From a virus, in IMG/VR virus record IMGVR_UViG_3300047274_000093, positions 1-23,070 of that record: 23,070 nucleotides of DNA; one strand, given 5' to 3'. A program made the translations under genes and the position numbers. The notes under the pieces were generated by a model. That model worked only from the letters and a program-made list of their open reading frames with translations, searched no databases and was not told where the DNA came from. Positions 3,112 to 21,764 of the stretch are shown here, piece by piece (position 1 is the first letter of the stretch; every line of letters starts with the position of its first letter).

Positions 3112-3819
3112 ATGGCTAAACTAACTTTACTTTACATGACGCAGAATATTCTTTCTGCGTTAGATAGTGACGCAGTGGATTCTATTGATGAAACTGTGGA
3201 AGCCGTACAAGTTGCCGAACTTGTTAAAGAGGCATACTTTGATTTAATTAGCCAGCGTGACTGGCCTTTTCTATTTGTACTAGGCAATTTAGATGGTCTT
3301 GGTGATGTTAACAATCCTACCAAGATGAAGATCCCTGATACGTACAACAAAATTAAATGGATCAAGTACAACAAGCAAGAAGTACAGTATGTTGATCCCG
3401 ATACTTTCCACACTATTATTAATCAGCGCGTAGCGCAAGCAGGTGTTATTAATAGCAACGGATACGTTATTAACCAAGATCCTCAATATTGGACTAGCTA
3501 TGATGACACTTACATTGTTTTTGATGGCTACAACCAAAGTGTTGAGTCTACTCTACAGTCGTCAAAAGCAGTTGTGTATGGTACACAGCAAGCTTCTTGG
3601 TCGCATGTAGACAATTACATTCCCAATATTCCTGAGAAGTTTTTCCCAACCCTACTAGCTGAAGCTAAGAGTCAAGCGTTTGTAAACTTAAAGCAACAGA
3701 GTAACGCCCGAGAAGAACGTAAAGCAACTCGGGGCCGCATGACCATGCGTAACGAAAGTTGGCGCAATGAAAACGGCGAAGCTAAATATAATACAAAGGT
3801 GTCGTATGGAAGAAAATAA
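3112..3819 (+). CDS. tail tubular protein A (T7 gp11-like adaptor)
   Basis: This 235-residue protein forms the ring joining portal and nozzle in T7-type tails. Recognisable features are the N-terminal helical region with AYFDLISQRDWPFLF (residues 42-56), a mid region KMKIPDTYNKIKWIKYN (74-90), and a C-terminal helix FFPTLLAEAKSQAFVNLKQQ followed by a basic tail (EERKATRGRMTMRNESWRNE). Length fits the family (T7 gp11 is about 196 residues; marine relatives are longer). It starts 2 bases after the preceding stop and overlaps the next small gene by 14 bases. The tail tubular protein B gene follows after two tiny genes, giving the expected gp11-gp12 order. Confidence 0.85.
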   Translation: MAKLTLLYMTQNILSALDSDAVDSIDETVEAVQVAELVKEAYFDLISQRDWPFLFVLGNLDGLGDVNNPTKMKIPDTYNKIKWIKYNKQEVQYVDPDTFHTIINQRVAQAGVINSNGYVINQDPQYWTSYDDTYIVFDGYNQSVESTLQSSKAVVYGTQQASWSHVDNYIPNIPEKFFPTLLAEAKSQAFVNLKQQSNAREERKATRGRMTMRNESWRNENGEAKYNTKVSYGRK

Positions 3820-4066: not shown

Positions 4067-4214
4067 ACAAAAACCAATGCTAAAAGAAGACGCTATGCAG
4101 CGTCAACAACGGTTGGTTAAACTTGCTGAAGCTGGTGATAGAGCTAAACGTCAACTAGGCATCGAAGAAAAGAAGCCTGACGTTAACCAGCATAAGTGGA
4201 AAGGTGTGATGTAA
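4053..4214 (+). CDS. very small basic protein between tail tubular genes
   Basis: This frame encodes 53 residues from a TTG start at 4053, preceded by AAAGGG at 4039-4044 with an 8-base spacer. An ATG at 4077 would give 45 residues and has no clear ribosome site. The product is basic and helical (KEDAMQRQQRLVKLAEAGDR) with no hydrophobic core. Its stop TAA overlaps the ATG of tail tubular protein B by one base (TAATG at 4212-4216), which suggests translational coupling. Function is unknown. The coding status is supported by tight packing and by the lack of any other gene in this gap. Confidence 0.55.
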   Translation: MKTPKQKPMLKEDAMQRQQRLVKLAEAGDRAKRQLGIEEKKPDVNQHKWKGVM

Positions 4215-6421
4215 TGGCAGTACAAGCCTCAGTTAAGGATGCGTTTACTTTCGTAGGTGGCCTCAATACTGAAGGCGGCTTTTTTGTTACGCCCGAAAAC
4301 TCTTGGAAAGAGGGTGTTAACGTTGTGCCTCTTATTGATGGCAGCATTGAGCGTAGGAATGGTCTTGATTACGAGACTAACTACACTCTTGCTGCTTTAG
4401 GCATTACCGCAGAACAAAAAAACACATGGGCGTTTACCACAGGCACATGGTCTAGCGTAGGAGGCAACTCTAACCTAGACTTTATGGTTGTACAAGCTGG
4501 CACTACCCTCCACTTTTACCGTGCAGCATCTGGTACTGTAAGTAATACTAAGAAGTCATTTACTGTTAACTTAGCGTCATACACTGCCCCCGGTAATCCT
4601 GATACCGTGGGTACTTCTATTTGTAGTTTTGCATCTACGTACGGCAAACTTATTGTTACTAGTAAGAGCACCGAGCCGTTACTTATTACGTACGACAGCA
4701 CTACGGACAACATTACAGTAACAACCATTACAATTCAGATTAGAGATTTTATTGGTTTCCCAAGTCCATACGCTATTAACGTTGAAAAGACTGCAGCAGA
4801 GTGGACTACTGCTGGTTTGCTTACTCAAGCAAAGTACAACCTATATAACCAAGGATGGACAGATACTCAGATTAACACCTACGAATCTTCTGTAGGTACG
4901 CTTCCTGCTAACAGCAAAAGCTGGATCTTTGGTAAAGACACTAACGACGACTTTAGTGCGTCTGTGCTAAACAAACAAGACTTTGGCACATCCCCTGCTC
5001 CTAAAGGCAGGTTTATTCTTAATGCGTTTAATCAAGAGCGTAGTGGCATTACAACTACCATTGAGTACCGTCCAAGAGTGTGTGCATTCTTTGCAGGGCG
5101 TGTGTGGTATGCTGGAGTAGCAACTACTGCCCAACTAGGTACTGTATATTTTAGTCAGGTACTAGATGATATTAATAAGGTTGGTTATTGCTATCAATCT
5201 AACGATCCAACTTCAGAAGTTATTAGCGATTTAGAAGACGATGATGGTGGCACCATTGAGATTCCAGATAGCGGCGAAATTGTAGCCTTAGAACCGCTAG
5301 GTCGAGGCATTATGGTCATTGCAACTAACGGTGTGTGGTTTATTAGTGGTATTGATCGGGGCTTCACTGCAGCTAGTTATTCAGTAGAGCGTGTGTCATC
5401 TGTAGGCTGCGTGTCTACTAAGAGTGTGGTTGTAGTTGAAGATGCATTAATCTACTGGTCTAACGGCGGTATTTACGCAGTGTCTCCCGGTAATACGGGT
5501 GCAGAGTTCTCTAGCCGCAACATTAGCGATCAGAACATTAAGACGTTCTATCAAAACATTCCTGTACTAAGCAAACTGTATGCTGAAGGTAGTTACAACG
5601 CTACCGACAAAGTGCTGTATTGGTTGTACTCGTCTACTGAAACTACTAACACCAGTGAAGGGCGTTTTAATAAGAACACCATTCTTGCGCTAGACTTGCG
5701 TCTTAACGCATGGTATTGGTTTGACATTGACACCTCTTTAGGTGTTATTCCTGTTTCAATCGAAGTTACTAAAGAAACTAACGAAGCAACTCTTGTGTAT
5801 GATGTGTATGTAGGTGACGATGACGTAGATGACGTAAGTAACAATGATGTGGTTGCCAACATTCCTGTGCTTAACGGCACAAAGAAAACATTCAAAGTTG
5901 TAGCTTTGCACCCTGTGTCTGCCAACAACTATTCTCTAACATTTAGCGACTTCTTAAATACACGAGTTAGTGCTACTAAGTTTAAAGATTGGTACAAGTT
6001 TAACACTGCAGGTGTAGAGCAGGACGCTTACTTTATTACGGGCTATAACATGGGCGGTAACGGCCCTGCTCGTACTAAAACTGGTATGTACCTCACTGTG
6101 TTTATGAAGCGCACAGAAATTGCATTTGATGAAAATGCTAACCCACTTAATGAGAGTGGCTGTCTAATGCAAAGTCGTTGGGACTTTACTGACAACAGTA
6201 ATCCCGGTAAATGGGCTGATGAAGTGCAAGTCTATCGTCAACCTCGTCCGTTTCTAGCTGCACCATTCCAAGCATTTGACGACGGCTATCCACTTGTTAT
6301 TAGTAAGAACAAACTACGTGGTCGCGGTAAAGCTGTACAGTTTAAGTATGCTTCGCAGTCTGGTAAAGACATGAAGATTGTAGGCTGGACAGGAACCTTT
6401 GTAGGTGCATCAAATGTTTGA
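4214..6421 (+). CDS. tail tubular protein B (T7 gp12-like nozzle)
   Basis: This 735-residue protein would form the nozzle through which DNA leaves. The start is set at the ATG at 4214, which overlaps the previous stop and has AAGGTG upstream; the longer open frame from 4196 lacks support. The N-terminus FTFVGGLNTEGGFFVTPENS then GVNVVPLIDGSIERRNGLDY is the typical opening of gp12-type proteins. The middle is beta-propeller-like, with PRVCAFFAGRVWYAG, YFSQVLDD and IVALEPLGRGIMVIATNGVWFISG (about residues 283-390). Length is close to T7 gp12 (794 residues). It follows tail tubular A with two tiny genes between. Confidence 0.85.
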   Translation: MAVQASVKDAFTFVGGLNTEGGFFVTPENSWKEGVNVVPLIDGSIERRNGLDYETNYTLAALGITAEQKNTWAFTTGTWSSVGGNSNLDFMVVQAGTTLHFYRAASGTVSNTKKSFTVNLASYTAPGNPDTVGTSICSFASTYGKLIVTSKSTEPLLITYDSTTDNITVTTITIQIRDFIGFPSPYAINVEKTAAEWTTAGLLTQAKYNLYNQGWTDTQINTYESSVGTLPANSKSWIFGKDTNDDFSASVLNKQDFGTSPAPKGRFILNAFNQERSGITTTIEYRPRVCAFFAGRVWYAGVATTAQLGTVYFSQVLDDINKVGYCYQSNDPTSEVISDLEDDDGGTIEIPDSGEIVALEPLGRGIMVIATNGVWFISGIDRGFTAASYSVERVSSVGCVSTKSVVVVEDALIYWSNGGIYAVSPGNTGAEFSSRNISDQNIKTFYQNIPVLSKLYAEGSYNATDKVLYWLYSSTETTNTSEGRFNKNTILALDLRLNAWYWFDIDTSLGVIPVSIEVTKETNEATLVYDVYVGDDDVDDVSNNDVVANIPVLNGTKKTFKVVALHPVSANNYSLTFSDFLNTRVSATKFKDWYKFNTAGVEQDAYFITGYNMGGNGPARTKTGMYLTVFMKRTEIAFDENANPLNESGCLMQSRWDFTDNSNPGKWADEVQVYRQPRPFLAAPFQAFDDGYPLVISKNKLRGRGKAVQFKYASQSGKDMKIVGWTGTFVGASNV

Positions 6422-6704
6422 TGTGTTTTGGGAAGACGAAGACGGAACATTAAAGTTCCAGCATCATATGGGTCGAGTTTACGCACACGCAGTTACTAAT
6501 AACTGGAACAAGCGTGTGTACATGAAATGCCTAGACGTATGGCACGTTGCAAAAGAAGAACTAAGAGAGGCAGGGCATAAAGAAGTGTTTGTACTTATCC
6601 CTGCTGACAACCAAAAGTTAATTAAGTTTGAAACAATCTTTGGCTTTAAACCTGTTAAACAGATTAACAATGCTCTGTTAATGGTTTGTTCAACGGAGAA
6701 ATAA
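6414..6704 (+). CDS. GNAT-like small protein in T7 gp13 position
   Basis: The protein has 96 residues. The ATG at 6414 is preferred because AGGTG lies 6 bases upstream; it overlaps the tail tubular B gene by 8 bases. The C-terminal part (KEVFVLIPADNQKLIKFETIFGFKPVKQINNALLMVC) has the shape of a GNAT acetyltransferase end, with the common GFKP turn. T7 gp13, encoded between gp12 and gp14, belongs to a family with GNAT-like character and is needed for virion morphogenesis. The gene order here (gp12-like, this gene, gp14-like) matches. An acetyl-CoA loop (Q/RxxGxG/A) is not visible, so it may be a non-catalytic relative. Confidence 0.55.
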   Translation: MFDVFWEDEDGTLKFQHHMGRVYAHAVTNNWNKRVYMKCLDVWHVAKEELREAGHKEVFVLIPADNQKLIKFETIFGFKPVKQINNALLMVCSTEK

Positions 6705-6705
6705 A

Positions 6706-7155
6706 ATGGGTATCTTAGAAGTAGCCGCAGTTATAGGTGCTGTAAGCAGTGTTGCAAGTGCACAACAACAGAGTAAAGCTGGCAAAGCACAACAACGTCA
6801 GTACGAAGCTGAACAACGCAAATCAGAAGTACAAAACATTCGTTCTGTGCGTCAGCAAATTCGTGAAGCTCGTCTAGCACAAGCCTCTATGACAAACGTA
6901 GCTGCACAAACAGGCGCTATGGGCGGCAGTGGTCTTGCAGGTGGTGTTAGTAGTGTTGGTTCTCAACTAGCTGGTAATTTAAATTACATGCAACAAATTG
7001 CTAAGGAAAACACAGCCATTGGAGCAGCCGCTGCTGAAAGTGCACAGGCTATGAGCAATGCTGCTGTCTTTGGTTCTGTTGGTAAACTTAGTGGTACTAT
7101 TTTTGAAGGCGAAGGTGGTTACGCTGCTCTATCTAAAAAATACAGGACTAAATAA
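6706..7155 (+). CDS. internal virion protein (T7 gp14-like)
   Basis: This 149-residue protein starts with a hydrophobic segment (ILEVAAVIGAVSSVASAQ, residues 3-20), followed by a Gln/Arg/Glu helix (QQSKAGKAQQRQYEAEQRKS) and a Gly/Ala-rich stretch (TGAMGGSGLAGGVSSVGSQL). This layout is typical of gp14-type internal core proteins, which are ejected and form a pore in the outer membrane in T7. Length is a little below T7 gp14 (196 residues). CGGAG lies about 7 bases before the ATG. Its stop overlaps the next start by one base (TAATG at 7153-7157), coupling it to the giant protein. Confidence 0.75.
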   Translation: MGILEVAAVIGAVSSVASAQQQSKAGKAQQRQYEAEQRKSEVQNIRSVRQQIREARLAQASMTNVAAQTGAMGGSGLAGGVSSVGSQLAGNLNYMQQIAKENTAIGAAAAESAQAMSNAAVFGSVGKLSGTIFEGEGGYAALSKKYRTK

Positions 7156-10100
7156 TGGAACTATACCAAGACGACGCACCTGAAGAACAGCAGCCTCTTT
7201 ACACAGAAGCAGACACGCAAACACCTATTGATACAACTACAGGTAATTATTCTGTATTAAAAGGTATTGTTACTGTTGCTACGGAACAACCATCTGCTGA
7301 TGGCGACGTTGATTTTGATTCCACCGTTGATAAAGCATGGCGCTCTCTTGCGCCACGAAACAATGCAATGGATTATCAGATTGCACAGAACGCAGCAACT
7401 CGTGGTGAACCTGAAATTGTACAGCAAATGGCTGCTAGGCTTACCGAGCGTGGGCGCATGCTTGGTGAAATCTCTCTTAAAAACATAGCCGATACTCGTA
7501 CTAAATTAAAAGAACTAGCAGAACAAGCAACTGAAAATGCAGCAGTTAAAAACCCTGCGGTATTGTTTAACAACACTCCACAAGAAATTAGTGTTTCAAA
7601 CGAACGTATTTCTACAAAACTAGCTGCATCTGCTGTTTTAGAAAAAGCTATTAAAGACGGCGAAAGTTTGTGGAACATTGGTAAAGGTATCTTTTACGAA
7701 ATTACTCCTTTAGCAGCAGAGCAAGGTGCCACTATGGACGAGGTGGCTATTAGGCATGGTGTTGCTAAAGATGCTATTAGTCGTGTTACAGGTCGTTCAG
7801 AAACTAAGTCAAGACTACAACTTGTTTTTCAGTCTAAACCAGATGAGGAAAAAGGCGAGTGGTTAAATAGTTTGTACGAAGACTTACGTAATAGTTTAAG
7901 CATTAGCGATTGGCAAGCTGCTTTAATGGTGCAAGAAGTGGCTACAGGTGCCGAGCAGACTTGGGATGGCTGGTCTGATTGGCTAGATCGACTAGGTGTT
8001 GTAGGCACGGTAGTTGCTGGTCTTGGTGCTGCTTTTAAAGCTACCCGTTTATTTAAGGGCGCTAGTGCTATTAATAACGTAGAGCGTACTCTTGCAGCAG
8101 GTGGCGGTAAGAGTGCTATTGTAGCAGCAGAAGGTGCTAAGATTACCTCTGAGGTAGCTAACAAAATGCGCCTACAAGCTGTAGGTGTTGTTGCTGGCGA
8201 ACTGACAGGCATCTCCACTGCAATTGATCTAGGCAAACTAGTCAGCGTCAATGCTGCTAAAGTGCTGCCAGACGTAATTACCACTGCAGCAGACGATCTG
8301 CAAAAACTAATTCGCCAACCCGTTGACAGGCTAATTAACGAACTGCAAGATGTAATTGCAGCCAAAGGTGTTCGTGCTGAAGAAGCTGCGGCTGAACTAG
8401 CCCTGCTTGAACGCACCTACTCTAAAGCCAACAACCCTAACGTACACTCAGTAGATCCTTTCAAACTATCTGAAGATGGTTTAGTTATTTCTGGTAAAGT
8501 CTATTACAAACCAGACAATGCTTCTGCATTCCTTACTAAAGAGGCGGCAGAGGCATACATTAAGGTTGTTGACCCATCAGGTAAGATGGGAATGAAAGTT
8601 GTTGGAGACACTACCAACACTAACTTCCTTGTTGAAGAAAGTGTTAAGAAAGATTTACAACTACGCAAGACCGCACTTGAAGCTCAAATCTTAGAGGAAA
8701 TTAACGCTGCTAAACCTAAGCCTCCTACTGGTGGTGAGAAGGTCGATGTTGGTGCGTTAGACATTAAAACTCCTAAAGAACTAGAACTTAGTAAACCACG
8801 TTGGAAAACTGCAGGACTAGTATTTGAATCAGATGTTGACAAAGCTGCTTACCAAGTAGGCAGCAAAACTAAACCCAGCAAAAGTGATTTAGTTATTAAA
8901 GAGTGGTTGCAAAAGACCACTGGTTGGGATGATGCTGAAATCAAAGCACATGCTCAACGTGTGCGTAACTACATTAAAGAAAACGAAGATGTTGCTCTTG
9001 ATGATGTAGGTAACATTCTTGTTGCTAACAATTATAACGGGCCTAGAGCATCAGCTTCTGCTGCTGTTTCTCCTGAAGTTCAAAAGCAATACGACACCGC
9101 ATTTAAAATTTTTGAGGCAGAAGCTGGTCTTGTTCGTATTGGTAATTTAGCATTATCACCAAATACACAAAAGGGTTTTATTGCTGAGTTTGTAGGTAAA
9201 CTTGCTCCTGCATTAGGTATGGAAAATCGCAAAGTTATTGTAATGCAATATAGCGATCTAAAGAAAAGTAAAACACCATACCTTAAAGAATTTGCAAAAG
9301 TATTCGATAAAAACCACCCTACAGCGGCTGCAGCCCATTCAAATTTTGGAAACGGGCAGTCTCTTATTATTATGCGGACTCAAGTAAGTCCTACATCTAA
9401 TCTCCGTTATTATATGGAGACTTTTGCCCATGAGTACGGGCATGCTTTTGATGCAGAATTTAATGGTAAATATTTTGCAACTATGCAAAATGCTTTTAAT
9501 GACTGGCTTAAAAGCAAAGGGTTAAAGTACGCTGGTCAAGCAAAATACCAAAAAGTAATTGACGCATACCCGCCTGAGATGCTGATTGAATATCGCAACT
9601 TAACAATGGGTAAACAACTTCTTGATGACTTTGTACAAAAATGGTTTCAAGGAGATAAAGCAGGATTTGATGTAGCAGAAGCAAACCTACATGGGTGGGC
9701 CAACAGCTATGCAGAATTCTTTGCAGAACAGTTTTCTAAATGGGCATTTACTGACGAAGTACCCACAACTATTTTAGGTCAAGCCTTTGCTAAATTAGTT
9801 GAAGGCTTCAAGATGATTGCAGCCGAACTAAACACTCGTCTTTCACAGCTATTAGGCCGTGAGATTGACGTTGCTACGGCTGACAAAAACATTACTAAAA
9901 TGTTGAACGATCACATCAAAATGTATCGTGATGACGTAGTGGTTACTCGTGCATCTGCATCTAACATTGCCAGTGAGTCCAAAGACATCAAACCTTCTTT
10001 AGAAAACCTAGAGAAGCAATTAGAAGAAATCACTGCGGAACTAAATGCAATTGAAGACGCTGAAAAAGGTCTTAAAACAGGTTATGTTGTAGAACAACCT

Positions 10101-13076
10101 ATTAACCGCACACTGGACTACTCATTAATTGGCAAATACACTGACGACGATATTAATAGCGCAACCCGATTTGCTATGGGCGATTGGGCACTGTCTACGT
10201 CTAAAGAACTGTACGGTCAACGTGTGGTGGGCATTGCACAGCAAAGTCGCTACCAAAAGCTGCTCACCAACTTTGTACGTCCTTCTCTAGAAAAGCTAAA
10301 TAAATCAGAGATGGTTGCTTTAAACGATGCACTAGTGCTAGGTGATAAAGAAGGTAAAGTATTCCAGTCCAATGAATTGGCTGGTATGGGTCTTTCTGCT
10401 AGTGCTCGTGAAGGCTATTACAAAGTACGTGCTCTACGTGATGTGATGTGGCAGATTAGGAATGATGCTGCTGCACGTAGCATGACTCGTCGTGGCTACG
10501 TAGAACTCACTAGCGACATTCCTTTAACTGAAGATAGTAGACTGTTTGTTAAACCCCGTGCCGTCGTTGAAGGCGACACTGTGTACCTTGCAGACTCACA
10601 GTCTGCTACTCGTGTTACTAGTAAGTTTTTAGAAGAAAATCAGACTAAAGGCTACACATTCTACGAACTTGTAGAACCTGTGGAAATTGAAGGTAAGATG
10701 CGCCGCATCATTGGTTTCCCTGATGGCAGCTACAAAACTAACAAGATTGCCAACGTTATTCCGTATCGTGCTGGCGAATATCGTCGTATCTACAGCGACG
10801 AATACTTTGTAAAGATTAAATCTGTTTACGAAGTAGACGGTAAGATGGAAGAAGTTGTACAGACGCACCGCACTGCTGCTAGCCTAGCGGAAGCTAATGC
10901 GTACGTTAAAGCGCTGAACGAAGCCAAGGCATTACATGCTGCTGGTAACTTAACCGTTGCTGAAGCAAGTCGCCTTATGGAGCCATTTGGTTGGAGGCCA
11001 GAAGAAATTATTGCTGCACTAGATAGCAACCGCTTTGGTCAGTCTTTCAGTGTCAACGTATTGTACACCCGTACAGATGATGACTACGTTACTGAAACCA
11101 TTGGCATGTCTACCAACTACTCGTCTAAGCGTGGCGATAAAGTGCTATCTGTATTTGGTAAGGATACAGTCAACACTCTAAGCCCACTAGATAGTGTAGC
11201 TGCAGAGATTGGTAACACTGCTTATGTGGCATCCATCACTGAGTGGCGCGAGAGCCACGTTGTTCGTTGGTTCAATACGTTCGTAGATGACCTACCTGAC
11301 AACGTTCGTACAATGACTCCTGATGCAGCTTTCCGTTACATGCTAAACAACAAGGGCATGTACATCGGTACTAGTAAGCGTCTAGCGACTGCAGAGAAAG
11401 TGCAAGACTACATCATTGCACAGATGAACATCCCAACCAAAGAAGAAAAGCAATATTTGGGATTTATGCGTATGATTAGCGAAGGTCTTGAATCTAAGAC
11501 AGGTAGCAAACCAATTGCCAAGCTGGGTGCTACTCTACGTGCTACTAAAGATTACCCAACATGGGCACGTACCATTGCATTCCACAGCTTCTTTGCATTT
11601 AATCCTGTACAGTTTTTCATGCAGGGTATGAACGCATTTAACGCCATTGCAATTAGTCCTTTGCACGGCATTAAGAGTGCTAAAGCATCGTCACTGTATT
11701 CTCTTGCACTGTTTAGTGATCAAGAAGATATTTGGCGTAATGTGGCTAAAGTAAACAACCTCACCAACCTAGGCTTAGGCATGAAGGAAGATGAGTTTGT
11801 GGAAGTTGTACGCGCTATTCGTCGCACAGGTCTAATGGATGGTATTAATACCACTAGCCTGTACGGTGCTGAAGTCGGTAAGTACGGCATCTTTAACAAA
11901 GTGTCTCGTCGTGCAGGTGATACCTCTGCAGCCTTCTTTAACGCTGGTGAAGGTTACAGCCGACTAGTTAGCTTTGACATTGCTCGTCGTGAGTACATTG
12001 ATGCTAACCCCGGTGTTGCTTGGTGGACAGACGAAGCTCTAGGTAAAATCATTGAGCGTCAAGATAGCCTGACTCAGAACATGACTCGTGCTAACACTGC
12101 CTCTTGGCAGCAAGGCTGGAAGTCTATTCCTACACAGTTCGTGCAATATCAGGTCAAGCTAATGATGAACATCATTCAGAGTTTGATGGGCAACCCACGA
12201 GCTTTTACACAGAAAGAAGCAGCACAACTACTACTAACCCACACGTTAGTTATGGGTACTGCTGGTGCCTTCCTATGGCCCTTCCGTGACATTCTAACTG
12301 ACATGCTGCCAGAAGATATGTCAGAGACACAACGCATCACTGTACAGCAGGGCGTGGTAGCAGGTGCAATTGCAGCCTTAACAGATGGTGAAGCAAAGCT
12401 AGCACTAGGTAGCCGCTTCAATACCTTCCGTTATTACGAAGACATTGTAAAAGGTCTGCTAGACCCTGAGAAAACCTTTATGGAGGTAGCTGCTGGCCCA
12501 TCTGGTTTTGCAGCTTTACGTATACTAGGAGGCTTTGGTGAGGCATTCTCAATCATTGCTAAAGCACCTATGACTATGGATACGCTACAAATTGCGTTAA
12601 CAGAAATTGGTAAGGGCAGCTTTTCGTTTATTAATAATGCTCAGAAAGCCCGCATTGCTATGGACAACTTTAATAAAGTTCAAAGTAGTAGTGGTTCAGC
12701 TATGTATCGAGTTACCGACACTGAAGCATGGATGATTGGTTTTGGCATTCCTCCTGCAGCACAGGAAGACTACAACATTGTGTACAGTAGCAAGAAAGCG
12801 CACGATGATGACATTAAAGCAGCATCCAAAGCTTTAGGTAAGCATGCTATGCTAGCACTAACAGCACTGCGTAATAATGACGATGAAGGGCATAAAACAC
12901 ACGCAGCAGTGGTTCAAGCTATTCTAAATAGTTATAGCGGTGCAGACTACACTCAACTAATGAAAGCAGCATACAAGACAGAAGCATTTACTCAGTATGA
13001 AAAAATGTTAACTGATCAAGCTATGAAAGATTGGAAGATTAAAGACATCGTGACGAACACAGGAGAAAACAAATAA
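7155..13076 (+). CDS. giant internal virion (ejection) protein with zincin protease motif
   Basis: The protein has 1973 residues and is the largest gene in the window. Its place and ends fit the ejection-protein class (T7 gp15/gp16 analogues). A zinc-metallopeptidase motif HEYGH is at residues 759-763, with AEFFAE at 853-858 as the likely third ligand region. A hydrophobic stretch LGVVGTVVAGLGAAF lies near residue 285, and others near 1480 (FHSFFAFNPVQFFMQGMNAF), 1700 (LLLTHTLVMGTAGAFLWPF) and 1735 (VVAGAIAAL), as expected for a protein that crosses membranes. The C-terminal third (about 1450-1970) resembles large phage virion proteins with conserved AGEGYSRLVSFDIARREY. No lytic transglycosylase motif is seen here; that activity seems to be in the separate gene at 15378. 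The protease could process virion proteins or act on the cell during entry. Confidence 0.75.
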   Translation: MELYQDDAPEEQQPLYTEADTQTPIDTTTGNYSVLKGIVTVATEQPSADGDVDFDSTVDKAWRSLAPRNNAMDYQIAQNAATRGEPEIVQQMAARLTERGRMLGEISLKNIADTRTKLKELAEQATENAAVKNPAVLFNNTPQEISVSNERISTKLAASAVLEKAIKDGESLWNIGKGIFYEITPLAAEQGATMDEVAIRHGVAKDAISRVTGRSETKSRLQLVFQSKPDEEKGEWLNSLYEDLRNSLSISDWQAALMVQEVATGAEQTWDGWSDWLDRLGVVGTVVAGLGAAFKATRLFKGASAINNVERTLAAGGGKSAIVAAEGAKITSEVANKMRLQAVGVVAGELTGISTAIDLGKLVSVNAAKVLPDVITTAADDLQKLIRQPVDRLINELQDVIAAKGVRAEEAAAELALLERTYSKANNPNVHSVDPFKLSEDGLVISGKVYYKPDNASAFLTKEAAEAYIKVVDPSGKMGMKVVGDTTNTNFLVEESVKKDLQLRKTALEAQILEEINAAKPKPPTGGEKVDVGALDIKTPKELELSKPRWKTAGLVFESDVDKAAYQVGSKTKPSKSDLVIKEWLQKTTGWDDAEIKAHAQRVRNYIKENEDVALDDVGNILVANNYNGPRASASAAVSPEVQKQYDTAFKIFEAEAGLVRIGNLALSPNTQKGFIAEFVGKLAPALGMENRKVIVMQYSDLKKSKTPYLKEFAKVFDKNHPTAAAAHSNFGNGQSLIIMRTQVSPTSNLRYYMETFAHEYGHAFDAEFNGKYFATMQNAFNDWLKSKGLKYAGQAKYQKVIDAYPPEMLIEYRNLTMGKQLLDDFVQKWFQGDKAGFDVAEANLHGWANSYAEFFAEQFSKWAFTDEVPTTILGQAFAKLVEGFKMIAAELNTRLSQLLGREIDVATADKNITKMLNDHIKMYRDDVVVTRASASNIASESKDIKPSLENLEKQLEEITAELNAIEDAEKGLKTGYVVEQPINRTLDYSLIGKYTDDDINSATRFAMGDWALSTSKELYGQRVVGIAQQSRYQKLLTNFVRPSLEKLNKSEMVALNDALVLGDKEGKVFQSNELAGMGLSASAREGYYKVRALRDVMWQIRNDAAARSMTRRGYVELTSDIPLTEDSRLFVKPRAVVEGDTVYLADSQSATRVTSKFLEENQTKGYTFYELVEPVEIEGKMRRIIGFPDGSYKTNKIANVIPYRAGEYRRIYSDEYFVKIKSVYEVDGKMEEVVQTHRTAASLAEANAYVKALNEAKALHAAGNLTVAEASRLMEPFGWRPEEIIAALDSNRFGQSFSVNVLYTRTDDDYVTETIGMSTNYSSKRGDKVLSVFGKDTVNTLSPLDSVAAEIGNTAYVASITEWRESHVVRWFNTFVDDLPDNVRTMTPDAAFRYMLNNKGMYIGTSKRLATAEKVQDYIIAQMNIPTKEEKQYLGFMRMISEGLESKTGSKPIAKLGATLRATKDYPTWARTIAFHSFFAFNPVQFFMQGMNAFNAIAISPLHGIKSAKASSLYSLALFSDQEDIWRNVAKVNNLTNLGLGMKEDEFVEVVRAIRRTGLMDGINTTSLYGAEVGKYGIFNKVSRRAGDTSAAFFNAGEGYSRLVSFDIARREYIDANPGVAWWTDEALGKIIERQDSLTQNMTRANTASWQQGWKSIPTQFVQYQVKLMMNIIQSLMGNPRAFTQKEAAQLLLTHTLVMGTAGAFLWPFRDILTDMLPEDMSETQRITVQQGVVAGAIAALTDGEAKLALGSRFNTFRYYEDIVKGLLDPEKTFMEVAAGPSGFAALRILGGFGEAFSIIAKAPMTMDTLQIALTEIGKGSFSFINNAQKARIAMDNFNKVQSSSGSAMYRVTDTEAWMIGFGIPPAAQEDYNIVYSSKKAHDDDIKAASKALGKHAMLALTALRNNDDEGHKTHAAVVQAILNSYSGADYTQLMKAAYKTEAFTQYEKMLTDQAMKDWKIKDIVTNTGENK

Positions 13077-15377: not shown

Positions 15378-15929
15378 ATGGATATTTTAGAAGACTTTAA
15401 AAACTTTCTTACAGGTAGACGTGCCAATCCTGAAGTGTCTGGAAAAGTTCAGGAGGCACAACCTGCCCAAGTAGATAAATATACTGATGTTGTACACTTT
15501 ATTGAAAGTAAACGTGGTAAAGTAATGGAGGCTAAGACCTCTTCAGCCAAAGGGCACTTTCAGTTTATTGACAAAACGTGGGAAGACTACGTTACTAAGA
15601 ACAAATTAAACTTTAGTCTTGAAGATAGATACGATTACGAGAAGTCCAAGAAGGTGTTTGATTTGTTTACACAAGACAACGTAAAGGCATTGCGTAAAGG
15701 ACTGGGGCGTGACCCATCAGATACTGAGAAGTACATGGCCCACAAACTAGGGCCGGGTGCAGCAGTTAAGTTTATGAAGGCTACCCCCAATACATCAGTA
15801 GATGCTATTGTAGGCAAGAGAGAACTTGCAGCAAATAAAAACGTATTCTATACGAAAGACGGTAAACCTAAAAAAGTTAGGGATGTGTACTCGTATTTCG
15901 ATGATTTCTTTATGAAAGAAAACCTATAA
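15378..15929 (+). CDS. virion-associated lytic transglycosylase
   Basis: The protein has 183 residues. The stretch VVHFIESKRGKVMEAKTSS, with GHFQFIDKTW, matches the goose-lysozyme/SLT pattern: Glu43 in HFIES would be the catalytic acid, and GHFQF the downstream glycan-binding motif. Later come YMAHKLGPGAAVKFMKA (about 114-130) and VRDVYSYFDDFF near the end, both common in phage SLT domains. In T7 this activity is the N-terminal domain of gp16; here it is a free-standing gene at the end of the ejection cluster. No signal peptide or membrane segment is present, so delivery with the virion is more likely than host lysis. It starts one base after the previous stop. Confidence 0.8.
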   Translation: MDILEDFKNFLTGRRANPEVSGKVQEAQPAQVDKYTDVVHFIESKRGKVMEAKTSSAKGHFQFIDKTWEDYVTKNKLNFSLEDRYDYEKSKKVFDLFTQDNVKALRKGLGRDPSDTEKYMAHKLGPGAAVKFMKATPNTSVDAIVGKRELAANKNVFYTKDGKPKKVRDVYSYFDDFFMKENL

Positions 15930-16545: not shown

Positions 16546-16703
16546 TGTTGTTTCTCCACAAAACTGTTGCACAGTTGGTGCACCTTACCATCTGCCGTCT
16601 TGAATTTTAACACCACTTCAATCTTGTTGTCAAAGTCATACAGGCTTACTAGTAAGTGCTTTCGCAGCGCTTCCATCATACGATAGGTTTCATCATTGGT
16701 CAT
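16542..16703 (-). CDS. 53-residue protein between sigma factor and small acidic protein
   Basis: This frame reads MTNDETYRMMEALRKHLLVS at its N-terminus and ends CNSFVEKQQ. It fills the gap between two confident genes with an open frame from the ATG at 16703 to the TGA at 16542-16544. GGAG lies 6 bases before the ATG. It overlaps the sigma gene end by 11 bases and shares ATGA with the next gene. A helix at 6-20 is followed by strands (NKIEVVLKFKTADGKVHQLC). The exact junctions make it credible. Function is unknown; the position next to the sigma factor is the only clue. Confidence 0.6.
   Translation of the reverse strand: MTNDETYRMMEALRKHLLVSLYDFDNKIEVVLKFKTADGKVHQLCNSFVEKQQ
16645..16656. 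repeat. one copy of dispersed palindrome TACTAGTA (12-base form CTTACTAGTAAG)
   Basis: The palindrome TACTAGTA occurs eight times in the window, starting at 104, 4657, 10616, 11369, 16647, 19992, 20558 and 22507. Four copies extend to TTACTAGTAA (4656, 10615, 16646, 20557), and those at 16645 and 20556 to CTTACTAGTAAG. All copies lie inside coding sequence. Chance would give well under one copy of an 8-mer in 23 kb. Whether it is a functional site or a codon-pair effect is not known. Confidence 0.4.
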
Positions 16704-17211
16704 AAGAACTCCGTATAGTCTTCTTTGCTTTCCACACTAGGTTTTTAGCATGGTTTGGGCTACACCGCAACACCGTAGCAATGTCATTATAACACATATT
16801 CTCTTCTAGTTTCAATAGAAGAGCACGTTTCTGTTTACTAGGCAACTTCTCAATGAGTAGGTGTACATGCTCTACTGCTTGCCTAGTTTCATAGATTGAT
16901 TCTGGTGTATCCACGGTGATGCTCTCAAAGTCGGTTTTAAGGCTGTTAAACGGGCGTTTGGACGCTTTATTGATGGCTATGGTACACAACCATGTATAGA
17001 ACTGACTATCGCCCCTAAACGTCTTCAAATACTTGAATGCAGCTACGAAGGTGTCTTGTGTCAATTCCTCTGCCAGAGCATTGTCGTTAACACGTTTCCT
17101 AAGAAACCTATAGATGCGATCCCAATACTTGGATGTTAGCAGAGAGTAAGCTTCCTCACTCCCTGCTAGCGCCTCAGTTATTAGTAATGTGTCATCAGAT
17201 TTCACAGACAC
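16693..17211 (-). CDS. ECF-type RNA polymerase sigma factor
   Basis: The protein has 172 residues with the two-domain ECF layout. Sigma region 2 spans about residues 22-85: YWDRIYRFLRKRVNDNALAE, then LTQDTFVAAFKYL and FRGDSQFYTWLCTIAINKA, matching the DAEDLTQ-F-RAW and F-T-WL-IA-N pattern. Sigma region 4 spans about 112-168: IEKLPSKQKRALLL, then a helix-turn-helix NDIATVLRCSPNHAKNLVWKA. No sigma 1.1, 1.2 or region 3 is present. It would bind core host RNA polymerase and direct it to a phage promoter set. Start: a stop codon lies one codon upstream, so the GTG at 17211 (or at 17205) must be used; no strong ribosome site is seen, and coupling to the RNR stop (17-base overlap) is likely. It is the most distal large gene of the minus-strand operon. 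Confidence 0.85.
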   Translation of the reverse strand: MSVKSDDTLLITEALAGSEEAYSLLTSKYWDRIYRFLRKRVNDNALAEELTQDTFVAAFKYLKTFRGDSQFYTWLCTIAINKASKRPFNSLKTDFESITVDTPESIYETRQAVEHVHLLIEKLPSKQKRALLLKLEENMCYNDIATVLRCSPNHAKNLVWKAKKTIRSSYDQ

Positions 17212-19093
17212 CGGCTACACACGCCAACTGTTGAGCACCCTCAACGTTGTCATCGTACTCTACGAAAGATTCCCAATCAATCGTAGCTGGCATCTCTGCC
17301 TTTAGCTTCTCATAAGTAGCTGCGTCAATCTCCTCGTAAGGGGCTTGCTTGTAGCTACCACCATCCCACGGCAGGAAACTAATGCCGCTAATCTCATCGA
17401 AGTTCTTCCAGACCCAAGCACCCACTTCAGGCCAGTCAGCTTCTTTGACATACACAGTAACTGATGGCTTGTGCTCACACCAGTGACGCTGGTAGGTTAG
17501 CCATAGTTTCAGGTGTGTGAAGCTGTCTAGTTCATCACGAGTGACACAGCCTTCAGGAGCCTTCATGGGGAAGCTGAACACAGTGGTGTCGTGTGGCTTC
17601 ATCACATCCGCTTCATTGGGAATGCCTTGGTCTTTGAGGAACTGCGTGATAGGGTCTTTGTTATCATTGCGTACCCGTCGAATATAAAACTCACTATGAC
17701 GAGCATGAATGCCAGAGGCGCTATCAACAAGCTGGCTAACAGTCCCGCTAGGCTTAACACAAGTAATCGCAGCAGACTGAGGGATACCAAGCTCATCAGC
17801 AAACTCCTTATTAGTAACGACAGACAACTCACGCATGGCATCAAGCCGTGATGACAGACCTTCGTCATTAATGTCATTCAGCAGAGGGCAGTCTAGGATA
17901 CCAGTGATGGACACACCTAGCAGACGCTCTTCTTCAGTGTTCTTCTGCCACACTTTACGTAGGTACGGGAAGTCAGTCAGTGTTGACTGAAAGGTACCCA
18001 GAATAGTGGCGAGTCTGACCTTTCGCTGCAGAGCATTATCATCATCATGTTTCCGTGCAACCACCTCTGTAAGATTACAGAATTGATACGGGCGCAAGAT
18101 AATTTCGGAACATGGGTTAGTACCGAACTCATAAGTGCTGTCTCGCCGTCCTCGTTTAGCAACTGTAGATTTAGCTGCTTGTCGAGAGAAGATTCCTCGC
18201 TCTCCACTGTAACTTTGATACAGTGCCAGCCACTCAGACATAAACTCTCCAACAGTGGGTTTGTCATTATAGCATGCACTGTTGTTTGCCAGTGCTCGTT
18301 GTCCTTCTCGCTCCCACCACTGTCCTGCTTTTGCATGTCGCATCCGATCATCTGACAAATCACTGAGGCTAATCATCGCTGACCGACGTACCCCACCAAC
18401 AACCACGACTTCCCCAATCTTACACATAATGTCATGGCACTCCAAGCTGGTAAGTTTCCGACCTGTCGCACCTTTAAACTTATTAGTAACAAATTCAAAG
18501 AGGCTAATGAGGGGTTGAGGGCCGCTAGCTCGACCCCCAAATACTTTAAGGCGTGCCCCTGCCGGACGGACTTTAGAGGTATCCCATTTTGGAATTTCCC
18601 CGGAATACAGTAGGGCGATAAGCTGACGTAGGGCCTTGGCCCAACCTGCCTTGCTATCAGACACAGAGATAGTAGTGTCGCTATTGAATAGCTGAGTAGG
18701 GACTTCAGGTAGTTTGTTAACATACTTGCTTTCTACAGAGAAGCCCACACCAGTGCCACACAGCAGGATGTACATAGCTTCGTCGAATGACTTCACATCG
18801 TCTACAGGCAGATAGCTGCAGTTATAACCAGCAGTGTTATCACGCTCTAGTGCGTCACCTGCAGTCATGATGGAACGCATGGAGGGCATCACTTCACAAT
18901 TGAGAATTGCAGAGTGTAGTTCCGTGTGTAGTGCTGCAGGAATCTTGTAGCCGTGTTTCTTTTGTAGATGTTGTGACATGAAGTTCATGTAGCGATCCAC
19001 AGTCTCGGGCCAATGCTCTCGACGATTCTTGTCGTCTAGGAATCGCGAGTAGCGGCTTTTAGCAATAAACGTTTCGTATGTACCTAGTGTCAT
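17195..19093 (-). CDS. nrdJ: class II (adenosylcobalamin-dependent) ribonucleotide reductase
   Basis: The protein has 632 residues and reduces ribonucleotides to deoxyribonucleotides using coenzyme B12. The start SRYSRFLDDKNRREHWPETV is typical. The redox cysteine is in YNCSYLP (Cys92). The active-site motif TNPCSEI carries Cys328, the thiyl-radical site, and Glu330; Cys339 in FCN is its partner, with the same 11-residue spacing as Cys408/Cys419 of Lactobacillus RTPR. The C-terminus has Cys625-x4-Cys630, as in RTPR Cys731/736, for reduction by thioredoxin. It is shorter than RTPR (739 residues), as in other phage class II enzymes, and has no obvious separate small subunit nearby. The ATG at 19093 overlaps the preceding 42-residue gene by four bases. 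The host must have or take up B12. Confidence 0.9.
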   Translation of the reverse strand: MTLGTYETFIAKSRYSRFLDDKNRREHWPETVDRYMNFMSQHLQKKHGYKIPAALHTELHSAILNCEVMPSMRSIMTAGDALERDNTAGYNCSYLPVDDVKSFDEAMYILLCGTGVGFSVESKYVNKLPEVPTQLFNSDTTISVSDSKAGWAKALRQLIALLYSGEIPKWDTSKVRPAGARLKVFGGRASGPQPLISLFEFVTNKFKGATGRKLTSLECHDIMCKIGEVVVVGGVRRSAMISLSDLSDDRMRHAKAGQWWEREGQRALANNSACYNDKPTVGEFMSEWLALYQSYSGERGIFSRQAAKSTVAKRGRRDSTYEFGTNPCSEIILRPYQFCNLTEVVARKHDDDNALQRKVRLATILGTFQSTLTDFPYLRKVWQKNTEEERLLGVSITGILDCPLLNDINDEGLSSRLDAMRELSVVTNKEFADELGIPQSAAITCVKPSGTVSQLVDSASGIHARHSEFYIRRVRNDNKDPITQFLKDQGIPNEADVMKPHDTTVFSFPMKAPEGCVTRDELDSFTHLKLWLTYQRHWCEHKPSVTVYVKEADWPEVGAWVWKNFDEISGISFLPWDGGSYKQAPYEEIDAATYEKLKAEMPATIDWESFVEYDDNVEGAQQLACVAGVCEI

Positions 19094-20632: not shown

Positions 20633-20839
20633 TTACTCCTCGTAAGGTACGTATAACGTGTTCAATGTCTCAAAGCTACCGTCTTCAAACTTCTTGACAA
20701 CCTCGCTAGTGCGTACCATGTCTCTGCCCCATACGTAGTGGTTTAGTGTGCGTACATGCGCCACTTCGTATCCCGGATACATTGTTGTATCAAAGATTGG
20801 TTCACCGACGAATTGAACTCTAGGCTTTACTTTGTCCAC
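20633..20839 (-). CDS. small hypothetical protein downstream of thyX
   Basis: Two starts are possible. The GTG at 20839 has GGAGG four bases upstream and gives 68 residues; an ATG at 20863 gives 76 residues but has no ribosome site and overlaps thyX by 37 bases. I prefer the GTG, which overlaps thyX by 13. The product contains PRVQFVGEPIFDTTMYPGYE and HVRTLNHYVWGRDMVRTSEV, then ends LNTLYVPYEE. The repeated strands suggest a small beta domain. No family was recognised. Confidence 0.6.
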   Translation of the reverse strand: MDKVKPRVQFVGEPIFDTTMYPGYEVAHVRTLNHYVWGRDMVRTSEVVKKFEDGSFETLNTLYVPYEE

Positions 20840-21471
20840 AAGTCCTCCAAGAATGGATAACATTGTACCAGAATATCTTTACATTGTAAAGCCACCTCAC
20901 GATGTTCTTTCTGCGTAGCTACGTCTGTACGTAGTTCAACATAGTGAATCCAACTCCGCAATGTACCATTCATGTACATCTTAGATACAGTCATTCCTTC
21001 AGGAAGTATTTTACGAGCAACCTCCTTGGCAATACCTTTATCTAACGCACTTTCATAAATAAACTCTACTTCATTCAGTAGTTTACTTTGAACACCCTGC
21101 CACCAATAGGCTAGGCGGCGGTCTTCATCGTCTGAGATATTAATATCAATGCTGTTTTGCCTATTAACAAAGTCTTGCTTACGTACTTCGTTCATTTCAA
21201 AATCAGCGGCTTTTGCATAACGCTGGCTAAACTCTTGGAAGCTGAAACTACGATGACGCAAGATTTGTCGAGCAATGTCTCGTGTCGTCGTAATTTCCAT
21301 GCACACATTGACCATCTCAAAGGGACTCCAGTGTTTGTTACGCACTAGATACTTGAGGAGCTTGTTGTTTGTATCTTCCTTAGTCTGACCACTAGGGTTT
21401 GAAACCCGTGCCATGTACGCTATCTGAGACTCGCCTGAAGGTGTCGTCCACACTAACTTGACTTCGCTCAT
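20827..21471 (-). CDS. thyX: flavin-dependent thymidylate synthase ThyX
   Basis: The protein has 214 residues. ThyX converts dUMP to dTMP using FAD and methylenetetrahydrofolate, without needing dihydrofolate reductase. The signature RHR-x7-S is present as RHRSFSFQEFSQRY (Arg72-His73-Arg74 to Tyr85). Also visible are MARVSNP (20-26), KHWSPFEMVNVCMEI (46-60) and RKILPEGMTVSKMYMNGTLR (C-terminal half), the latter holding the family's LP-x-x-T/M-x-x-N region and the start of RSWIHYVELR. The start is the ATG at 21471 with GAGGAG ten bases upstream; the open frame to 21543 is not supported. Length is normal. It pairs with the class II RNR in the same operon. Confidence 0.92.
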   Translation of the reverse strand: MSEVKLVWTTPSGESQIAYMARVSNPSGQTKEDTNNKLLKYLVRNKHWSPFEMVNVCMEITTTRDIARQILRHRSFSFQEFSQRYAKAADFEMNEVRKQDFVNRQNSIDINISDDEDRRLAYWWQGVQSKLLNEVEFIYESALDKGIAKEVARKILPEGMTVSKMYMNGTLRSWIHYVELRTDVATQKEHREVALQCKDILVQCYPFLEDLWTK

Positions 21472-21530
21472 ATTCTCGTAGCTCCTCTTGCCAATCACGT
21501 TCCATTTCGTTATTAATAACTTCCCGCTTC

Positions 21531-21764
21531 CTACTCTTCCCAAGTCTTTCCTGATCCAAAGTTGAGCGGCTCATCTTCAAACGCTGGTTCTTCAAAGTTG
21601 TCATCGTCTTCAAAAAAGTTAGTGTAGTTGGCTACCAGTACGTCAGGCAGTAGGTTGATAATGTCTTCGACAGACAGCCCAAGAGCAATTACTAGCTCTA
21701 CAGGATCGTCAAAGTTCTCTTCGATAAACTCTTTAACCTGCCGTAGTTTGTCGGTGTAGTTCAT
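21531..21764 (-). CDS. acidic hypothetical phage protein (77 residues)
   Basis: The start is taken at the ATG at 21764. The ribosome site is weak, and an in-frame extension to 21821 exists inside the upstream gene. The product is very acidic: FIEENFDDPVELVIALGLSV (helical, residues about 12-31), then EDIINLLPDVLVANYTNFFE and a Glu/Asp-rich end. The DPVELV-ALGLSVEDII pattern suggests a small helical bundle. It overlaps the metallophosphoesterase gene by 32 bases; thyX begins 59 bases further on. Acidic small proteins can mimic DNA, but that is only a possibility. Confidence 0.6.
   Translation of the reverse strand: MNYTDKLRQVKEFIEENFDDPVELVIALGLSVEDIINLLPDVLVANYTNFFEDDDNFEEPAFEDEPLNFGSGKTWEE

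Follow-up and report, generated by a model that had tools for sequence, protein, structure and literature searches.

A predicted zincin metallopeptidase domain in a giant internal virion protein homologue of an uncultivated Zobellviridae-like phage clade

The window, i.e. the whole stretch of DNA that was analysed, comprises 23,070 bases of the virus record IMGVR_UViG_3300047274_000093. A very long gene lies in its structural region, flanked by the following genes.

3112..3819, + strand: tail protein, upstream of the giant gene (phrog_7592 tail protein, E 2e-60)
4196..6421, + strand: tail appendage protein (phrog_8094, E 2.8e-147)
6405..6704, + strand: small, weakly GNAT-like gene, in the GNAT place of many Zobellviridae (NCBIfam GNAT E 0.018, below cut-off; synteny)
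6706..7155, + strand: 149-aa protein in the position of internal virion protein B (phrog_8168, function unknown; position as in ICBM2)
7155..13076, + strand: giant ejection-type protein of 1973 aa, carrier of the predicted zincin (open reading frame; C-terminal match to phrog_12003; tblastn matches to 35 phage records)
13076..15376, + strand: 766-aa protein, presumed ejection partner (by position only)
15378..15929, + strand: separate transglycosylase-type gene (phrog_4067 transglycosylase, E 9.2e-26; Pfam SLT_4 below cut-off)

Neither Pfam and PHROGs nor a set of 50,697 phage records gave a match to the 766-aa protein next to the giant. The transglycosylase-type domain forms a gene of its own in the window (15378-15929); in T7, a transglycosylase domain constitutes the N-terminus of gp16 (PMC8954989). 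On the minus strand, genes for a sigma-factor-like protein (16693-17211), ribonucleotide reductase (17195-19093), and thymidylate synthase (20827-21543) adjoin the structural genes. We also noted that the giant gene consists of two overlapping frames in the loci L002 (6103-6741 and 6657-11996) and L024 (2-1876 and 1828-4503), where a frameshift or an assembly error is possible.

The nature of the giant protein was assessed from its C-terminal half. Residues 1031-1784 match phrog_12003, an internal virion protein family (E 1.9e-45), the C-terminal half matches 35 phage records by tblastn, and hhalign of the family profile against named giants gave C-terminal matches, e.g. to GX1 (E 2.7e-32). 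Fourteen of the 35 records were examined as named homologues (the remainder include near-duplicates), and 13 of these are classified as Zobellviridae in their records. The window shares its gene order with ICBM2 and CRP-5 (tail adaptor, tail appendage, GNAT, internal virion protein B, giant, second large protein, cell-wall enzyme), and, among the matches listed (15 of 116 records), the major capsid proteins of SIO1, P12053L, ICBM1-3, and CRP-5 share 44-48% identity with that of the window. The original prediction had placed the giant in a T7 gp15/gp16-type position, which is borne out by the C-terminal homology to internal virion proteins together with the gene order. In view of its C-terminal homology to Zobellviridae internal virion protein D and of the matching gene order, the 1973-aa protein is likely to be packaged and ejected.

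A zinc protease motif had been proposed for window positions 9387-9740, which translate to aa 745-862 of the 1973-aa frame. Translation confirmed both of its elements, HEYGH at aa 759-763 and AEFFAE at aa 853-858. From its composition, this protein would be expected to contain 0.013 HEXXH motifs. The features of the giant gene are as follows.

8697..8789, + strand: variable linker, rich in K, P, and T, that precedes the zincin region (aa 515-545), a candidate cleavage zone (linker alignment)
9006..9089, + strand: variable linker immediately before the zincin, aa 618-645, a candidate cleavage zone (linker alignment)
9072..9869, + strand: predicted zincin domain, aa ~640-905 (AF2 prediction for aa 640-935; zincins rank highest in VIA-align)
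9336..9338, + strand: H728, histidine of core strand 2 (19/19 and 30/31 sequences; model strand 87-91)
9429..9443, + strand: HEYGH, aa 759-763, with two presumed zinc ligands and the presumed general base E760 (H759, E760, and H763 invariant)
9708..9728, + strand: YAEFFAE, aa 852-858, helical stretch presumed to supply the third zinc ligand (Y852, E854, and E858 invariant in 19/19 and 31/31 sequences; model helix)
10245..12506, + strand: C-terminal internal virion protein D module, aa 1031-1784 (phrog_12003; hhalign to named giants)

Besides the zincin and the internal virion protein D module, profile searches recognised no domain in the 1973-aa protein, its N-terminal 540 aa included.

Conservation of the motif was evaluated in relatives gathered by patterns from the C-terminal half, i.e. 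independently of HEXXH. This yielded 23 loci; the motif position is covered by 21 of them, each of which keeps HE[YF][GA]H. L013 starts at aa 920 and thus falls short of this position; L031 aligns over 50 residues only, and HEXXH is absent from its open reading frames of at least 120 aa. Together with the window and after merging three duplicates, the motif-independent set comprised 19 distinct sequences. The original prediction named unconserved His and Glu residues as grounds for rejection, whereas H759, E760, H763, E854, and E858 proved invariant in 19/19, as did W848, Y852, F855, F856, A857, and H728. A larger set of 31 distinct sequences, biased because it was partly picked by HEXXH and EFFAE, showed the same five catalytic-type residues in 31/31 and H728 in 30/31. 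Position 766, three residues past HEXXH, was Glu in 25, Asp in 5, and Ala in one of these 31 motif-biased sequences, and the distance from the first His of HEXXH to the Glu of EFFAE ranged from 93 to 101 residues (31 sequences). Minimum identity to the window was 39% for the zincin domain versus 64% for the C-terminal module (19 distinct sequences). The dN/dS ratio of the zincin was between 0.018 and 0.15 in all seven sequence pairs, and exceeded that of aa 1100-1800 in five of the six pairs computed for both. As judged by these sequence comparisons, the zincin domain is under purifying selection that is somewhat looser than that on the channel module.

For the fold, AF2 was applied to aa 640-935 (residue number in the model = aa minus 639). 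A first model, built on five close sequences, was poor (pLDDT 47.7) and was superseded by a model from the 31-sequence alignment (pLDDT 88.2, pTM 0.90). Along its chain, the latter shows a helix (34-48) and a strand (54-59), then helices, two further strands (87-91 and 96-101), the active-site helix (111-148, aa 750-787, with HEYGH at model residues 120-124), and the EFFAE helix (213-227, aa 852-866, with EFFAE at model residues 215-219). The zincin core, consisting of a helix, a three-stranded sheet, and the active-site helix, is thus present in order. At a threshold of E 0.001, a Foldseek search of PDB with this model gave no match; anthrax lethal factor occupied the top two places of its list (E 0.24 and 0.35). 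VIA-align was run on the Foldseek candidates and ranked first lethal factor 1pwv (Z 8.1, rmsd 4.0, 162 aligned residues), followed by Certhrax (Z 7.6, rmsd 4.8, 170 aligned), PPEP-3 (Z 7.3, rmsd 3.7, 162 aligned), insulin-regulated aminopeptidase (Z 7.3, rmsd 5.0, 159 aligned), and PPEP-1 (Z 7.1, rmsd 3.6, 151 aligned), all within or close to the range (Z near or under 8) in which the tool cautions that a match may reflect a common arrangement. Some of these top structures are zincin-derived. In BFVD, the best match was an uncultured-phage protein (46% identity, E 3e-23); second to it, at 20% identity (E 7e-9), stood an entry whose annotation names a large polyvalent protein associated domain.

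The AF2 topology and the zincins atop the VIA-align list agree with the zincin fold originally claimed, and the check for a wrong fold did not refute it. Because the VIA-align rows are consistent and the catalytic residues conserved, we regard a zincin fold with an intact active site as very probable for this part of the giant, as far as a predicted model can indicate. We infer that zinc is bound via H759, H763, and probably E854, with E760 as general base. The sequences suggest E854 rather than E858 as the third ligand, since the corresponding helix of BPP-1-type giants reads E-x-[FW]-A-R in 9/9 sequences, with Arg at the position of E858 (according to a weak profile alignment).

Compared with internal virion protein D of Zobellviridae (ICBM2, ICP2, VpV262, and CRP-5), the window giant has the C-terminal module and the gene order in common, but HEXXH occurs in none of the 14 examined giants of named homologues. 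On the basis of this 0/14 count, the predicted zincin marks an uncultivated clade whose named relatives, as far as examined, lack HEXXH, and the ejection machine of those relatives would work without a zincin. The domain may have been gained by the window clade or lost by the others. A layout in which the zincin was inserted between an N-terminal and a C-terminal part, each common to named Zobellviridae, is unproven, as N-terminal alignments were insignificant, the best collinear one reaching 0.026 (T4S1).

No known peptidase family could be assigned by sequence. The zincin had no match above cut-off in Pfam, PHROGs, NCBIfam, PADLOC, or PDB sequences. Below cut-off, models of several peptidase types appeared among the 19 members, i.e. 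SprT-like (5/19), M12-type (5/19), M50B (3/19), and M78 (1/19); these matches fit a zincin helix and assign no family. M34 (the lethal factor/Pro-Pro endopeptidase type) was absent from the PDB-sequence profile search, with structural rows at Z 8.1 to 7 and a best Foldseek E of 0.24, and the zincin is not filed here as an M34 member. Among solved structures, its fold comes closest to the lethal factor and Pro-Pro endopeptidase zincins (Z from 8.1 down to about 7). The latter show no sequence match to it and are secreted, whereas the window zincin lies inside a virion protein; the stretch of 93-101 residues between the first His and the EFFAE Glu also sets the window family apart from them. A genome scan with pattern A4 gave 592 pattern matches and no relatives. 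Searching phage records by tblastn with the zincin domain of the window, L060, or L059 gave no match, and with that of L061 a single one (MZH0603, E 0.6).

Zincins in giant injected phage proteins have been published before, and the window domain adds a probable member. Iyer et al. (2017, PMC5512222) report zincin-like metallopeptidases more often than any other domain in the polyvalent proteins of phages and plasmids, among them a lethal factor-related zincin in the N4 virion RNA polymerase; a 2025 preprint on the N4 structure also notes an HExxH C1 domain (PMC12633501). With the polyvalent metallopeptidases (MPTases) as portrayed in PMC5512222, the window family shares the HEXXH helix, the Glu helix, and the location in a giant, presumably packaged phage protein. 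The phage-type MPTase clade is characterised there by a His that ends strand 2, together with an Asp at the third position past HEXXH; in the window family, the strand-2 His is found in 30/31 and an acidic residue three past HEXXH in 30/31 sequences, the latter being mostly Glu (25/31, Asp 5/31) rather than Asp. Unlike polyvalent MPTases, the family is without a Pfam match above cut-off and is carried by an internal virion protein D homologue, and unlike in polyvalent proteins, a second enzymatic domain was not recognised in the window giant. No description of a zincin in a Zobellviridae-type internal virion protein D was found in the literature searched, a search that left most subscription papers, and supplements, outside its reach.

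The N4-type virion RNA polymerase is likewise a giant protein ejected by podophages, and its HExxH-bearing C1 is a domain of the zincin type, but this carrier contains an RNA polymerase and the window giant does not. Profiles were built for this group (four sequences from 219 phage records found by tblastn) and for the BPP-1 bbp10/MZH0603 group (nine sequences from 43 phage records found by tblastn). Hhalign of the zincin was weak in both cases (P 0.0028 and P 0.0021, respectively; probability 11-13%), and both weak alignments were collinear across the two motif helices.

The idea of a protease function is not new, because the same options were proposed in 2017 for polyvalent proteins, namely processing before packaging, in the head, or after injection, or attack on host proteins, with autoprocessing also put forward (PMC5512222). 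For the window giant, the following scheme may apply. As an ejection protein of the internal virion protein D kind, with the predicted zincin between its N-terminal part and the Zobellviridae-type C-terminal module, it would carry the protease packaged in the virion, and the domain would leave with the DNA. During or after ejection, the zincin might then cut flexible linkers of its own chain or of ejection partners, and such cleavage might free the C-terminal module or remodel the DNA channel; the cutting and its effects are the least certain part of the scheme. Processing of itself or of partners after packaging is a credible main role of the zincin, one that we put just short of an even chance. 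In the linker alignment, freely varying flexible linkers flank the zincin on its N-terminal side; as sequence features, they fit self or partner cutting and equally a simple tether. The alignment revealed no recognisable conserved cleavage site in the linkers of relatives. A Pro-Pro cleavage site by analogy with PPEP was considered and dropped; Pro-Pro occurs in the linkers of several relatives, but its place is not conserved. Against self-processing, the N4 virion RNA polymerase, which has the same kind of domain, is reported to be packaged unprocessed (PMC5512222). In a more specific and rather speculative variant, a timed protease within a protein that contributes to a trans-envelope DNA channel would act when DNA starts to enter, its target being this channel protein, a partner, or a protein of the host envelope.

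Alternatively, the zincin could act as an injected effector that cuts a periplasmic, membrane, or cytoplasmic host protein early in infection, e.g. a component of defence or transcription. We consider this possible but on the unlikely side. The faster divergence of the zincin relative to the C-terminal module (39% vs 64%; dN/dS in 5/6 pairs) fits a changing target, its nearest solved folds are secreted proteases acting on other proteins, and host attack has been proposed for polyvalent zincins (PMC5512222). However, looser structural constraint accounts equally well for the divergence, no secretion signal, host target, or partner was identified for the zincin, and its presence in every checkable member is at least equally consistent with a core role. 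In the course of assembly, the zincin could cut the giant or further virion proteins, either ahead of their entry into the head or within it. A precedent for this is DdrB of phage P1, a zincin carrier processed before packaging (PMC5512222), but the zincin-bearing N4 polymerase, reported to be packaged unprocessed, speaks against it, and no assembly protease site was apparent in the sequences of the window proteins; such a maturation role appears improbable. That the zincin might cut peptidoglycan is conceivable, but the window has a separate transglycosylase-type gene.

Two further explanations dispense with proteolysis. The fold, perhaps with zinc, could be kept for structure or packaging only, as the part of the N4 protein in which the zincin lies is reported to be required for encapsidation (PMC5512222); since a purely structural zinc site needs no E760, whereas this general base is present in 19/19 and 31/31 sequences, we find little room for this explanation. 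A chance HEXXH without a zincin fold, in line with the missing matches above cut-off in Pfam, NCBIfam, and PDB sequences, is hardly tenable and refuted in practice by the low number of motifs expected (0.013), the invariance of the residues, and the zincin obtained by AF2 and VIA-align.

The domain would extend the injected zincins to a gp16-type (internal virion protein D) ejection protein of a Zobellviridae-like clade. As the examined named relatives are without the motif, the clade allows a comparison of one ejection machine in protease-bearing and protease-free form. The substrates of zincins in ejected proteins are left open in the parts of PMC5512222 and PMC12633501 drawn on here, and the invariant E760 offers a direct handle on what such zincins cut. 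If the zincin is indeed a timed protease, the window family would represent a distinct clade of virion zincins with proteolytic control of genome ejection.

A comparable arrangement was noted in giants of the BPP-1/MZH0603 type: these podophage proteins of the structural cassette combine HE..H with a Glu helix, as the window giant does. The giant of Vibrio phage MZH0603 contains HEFGH and matches the family profile (E 2.4e-4 in a search of 15 giants), and BLAST detected no significant C-terminal homology between it and the window giant. We did not retain the hypothesis that MZH0603 and BPP-1 share the whole layout of zincin plus C-terminus: a long MZH0603 alignment reached E 1.7e-5, but the nine-sequence profile gave P 0.59 C-terminally, so that the C-terminal part of BPP-1-type giants is not regarded as homologous to that of the window. 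The zincin-like pair of HE..H and an E-x-[FW]-A-R helix was seen in the giants of L080:3685-9843 (BPP-1 bbp10), L062:4075-9783 (MZH0603), L078, L079, and L081-L085. These giants, which 43 phage records match, are annotated as crystallin-motif, lysis, coil-containing, or hypothetical proteins.
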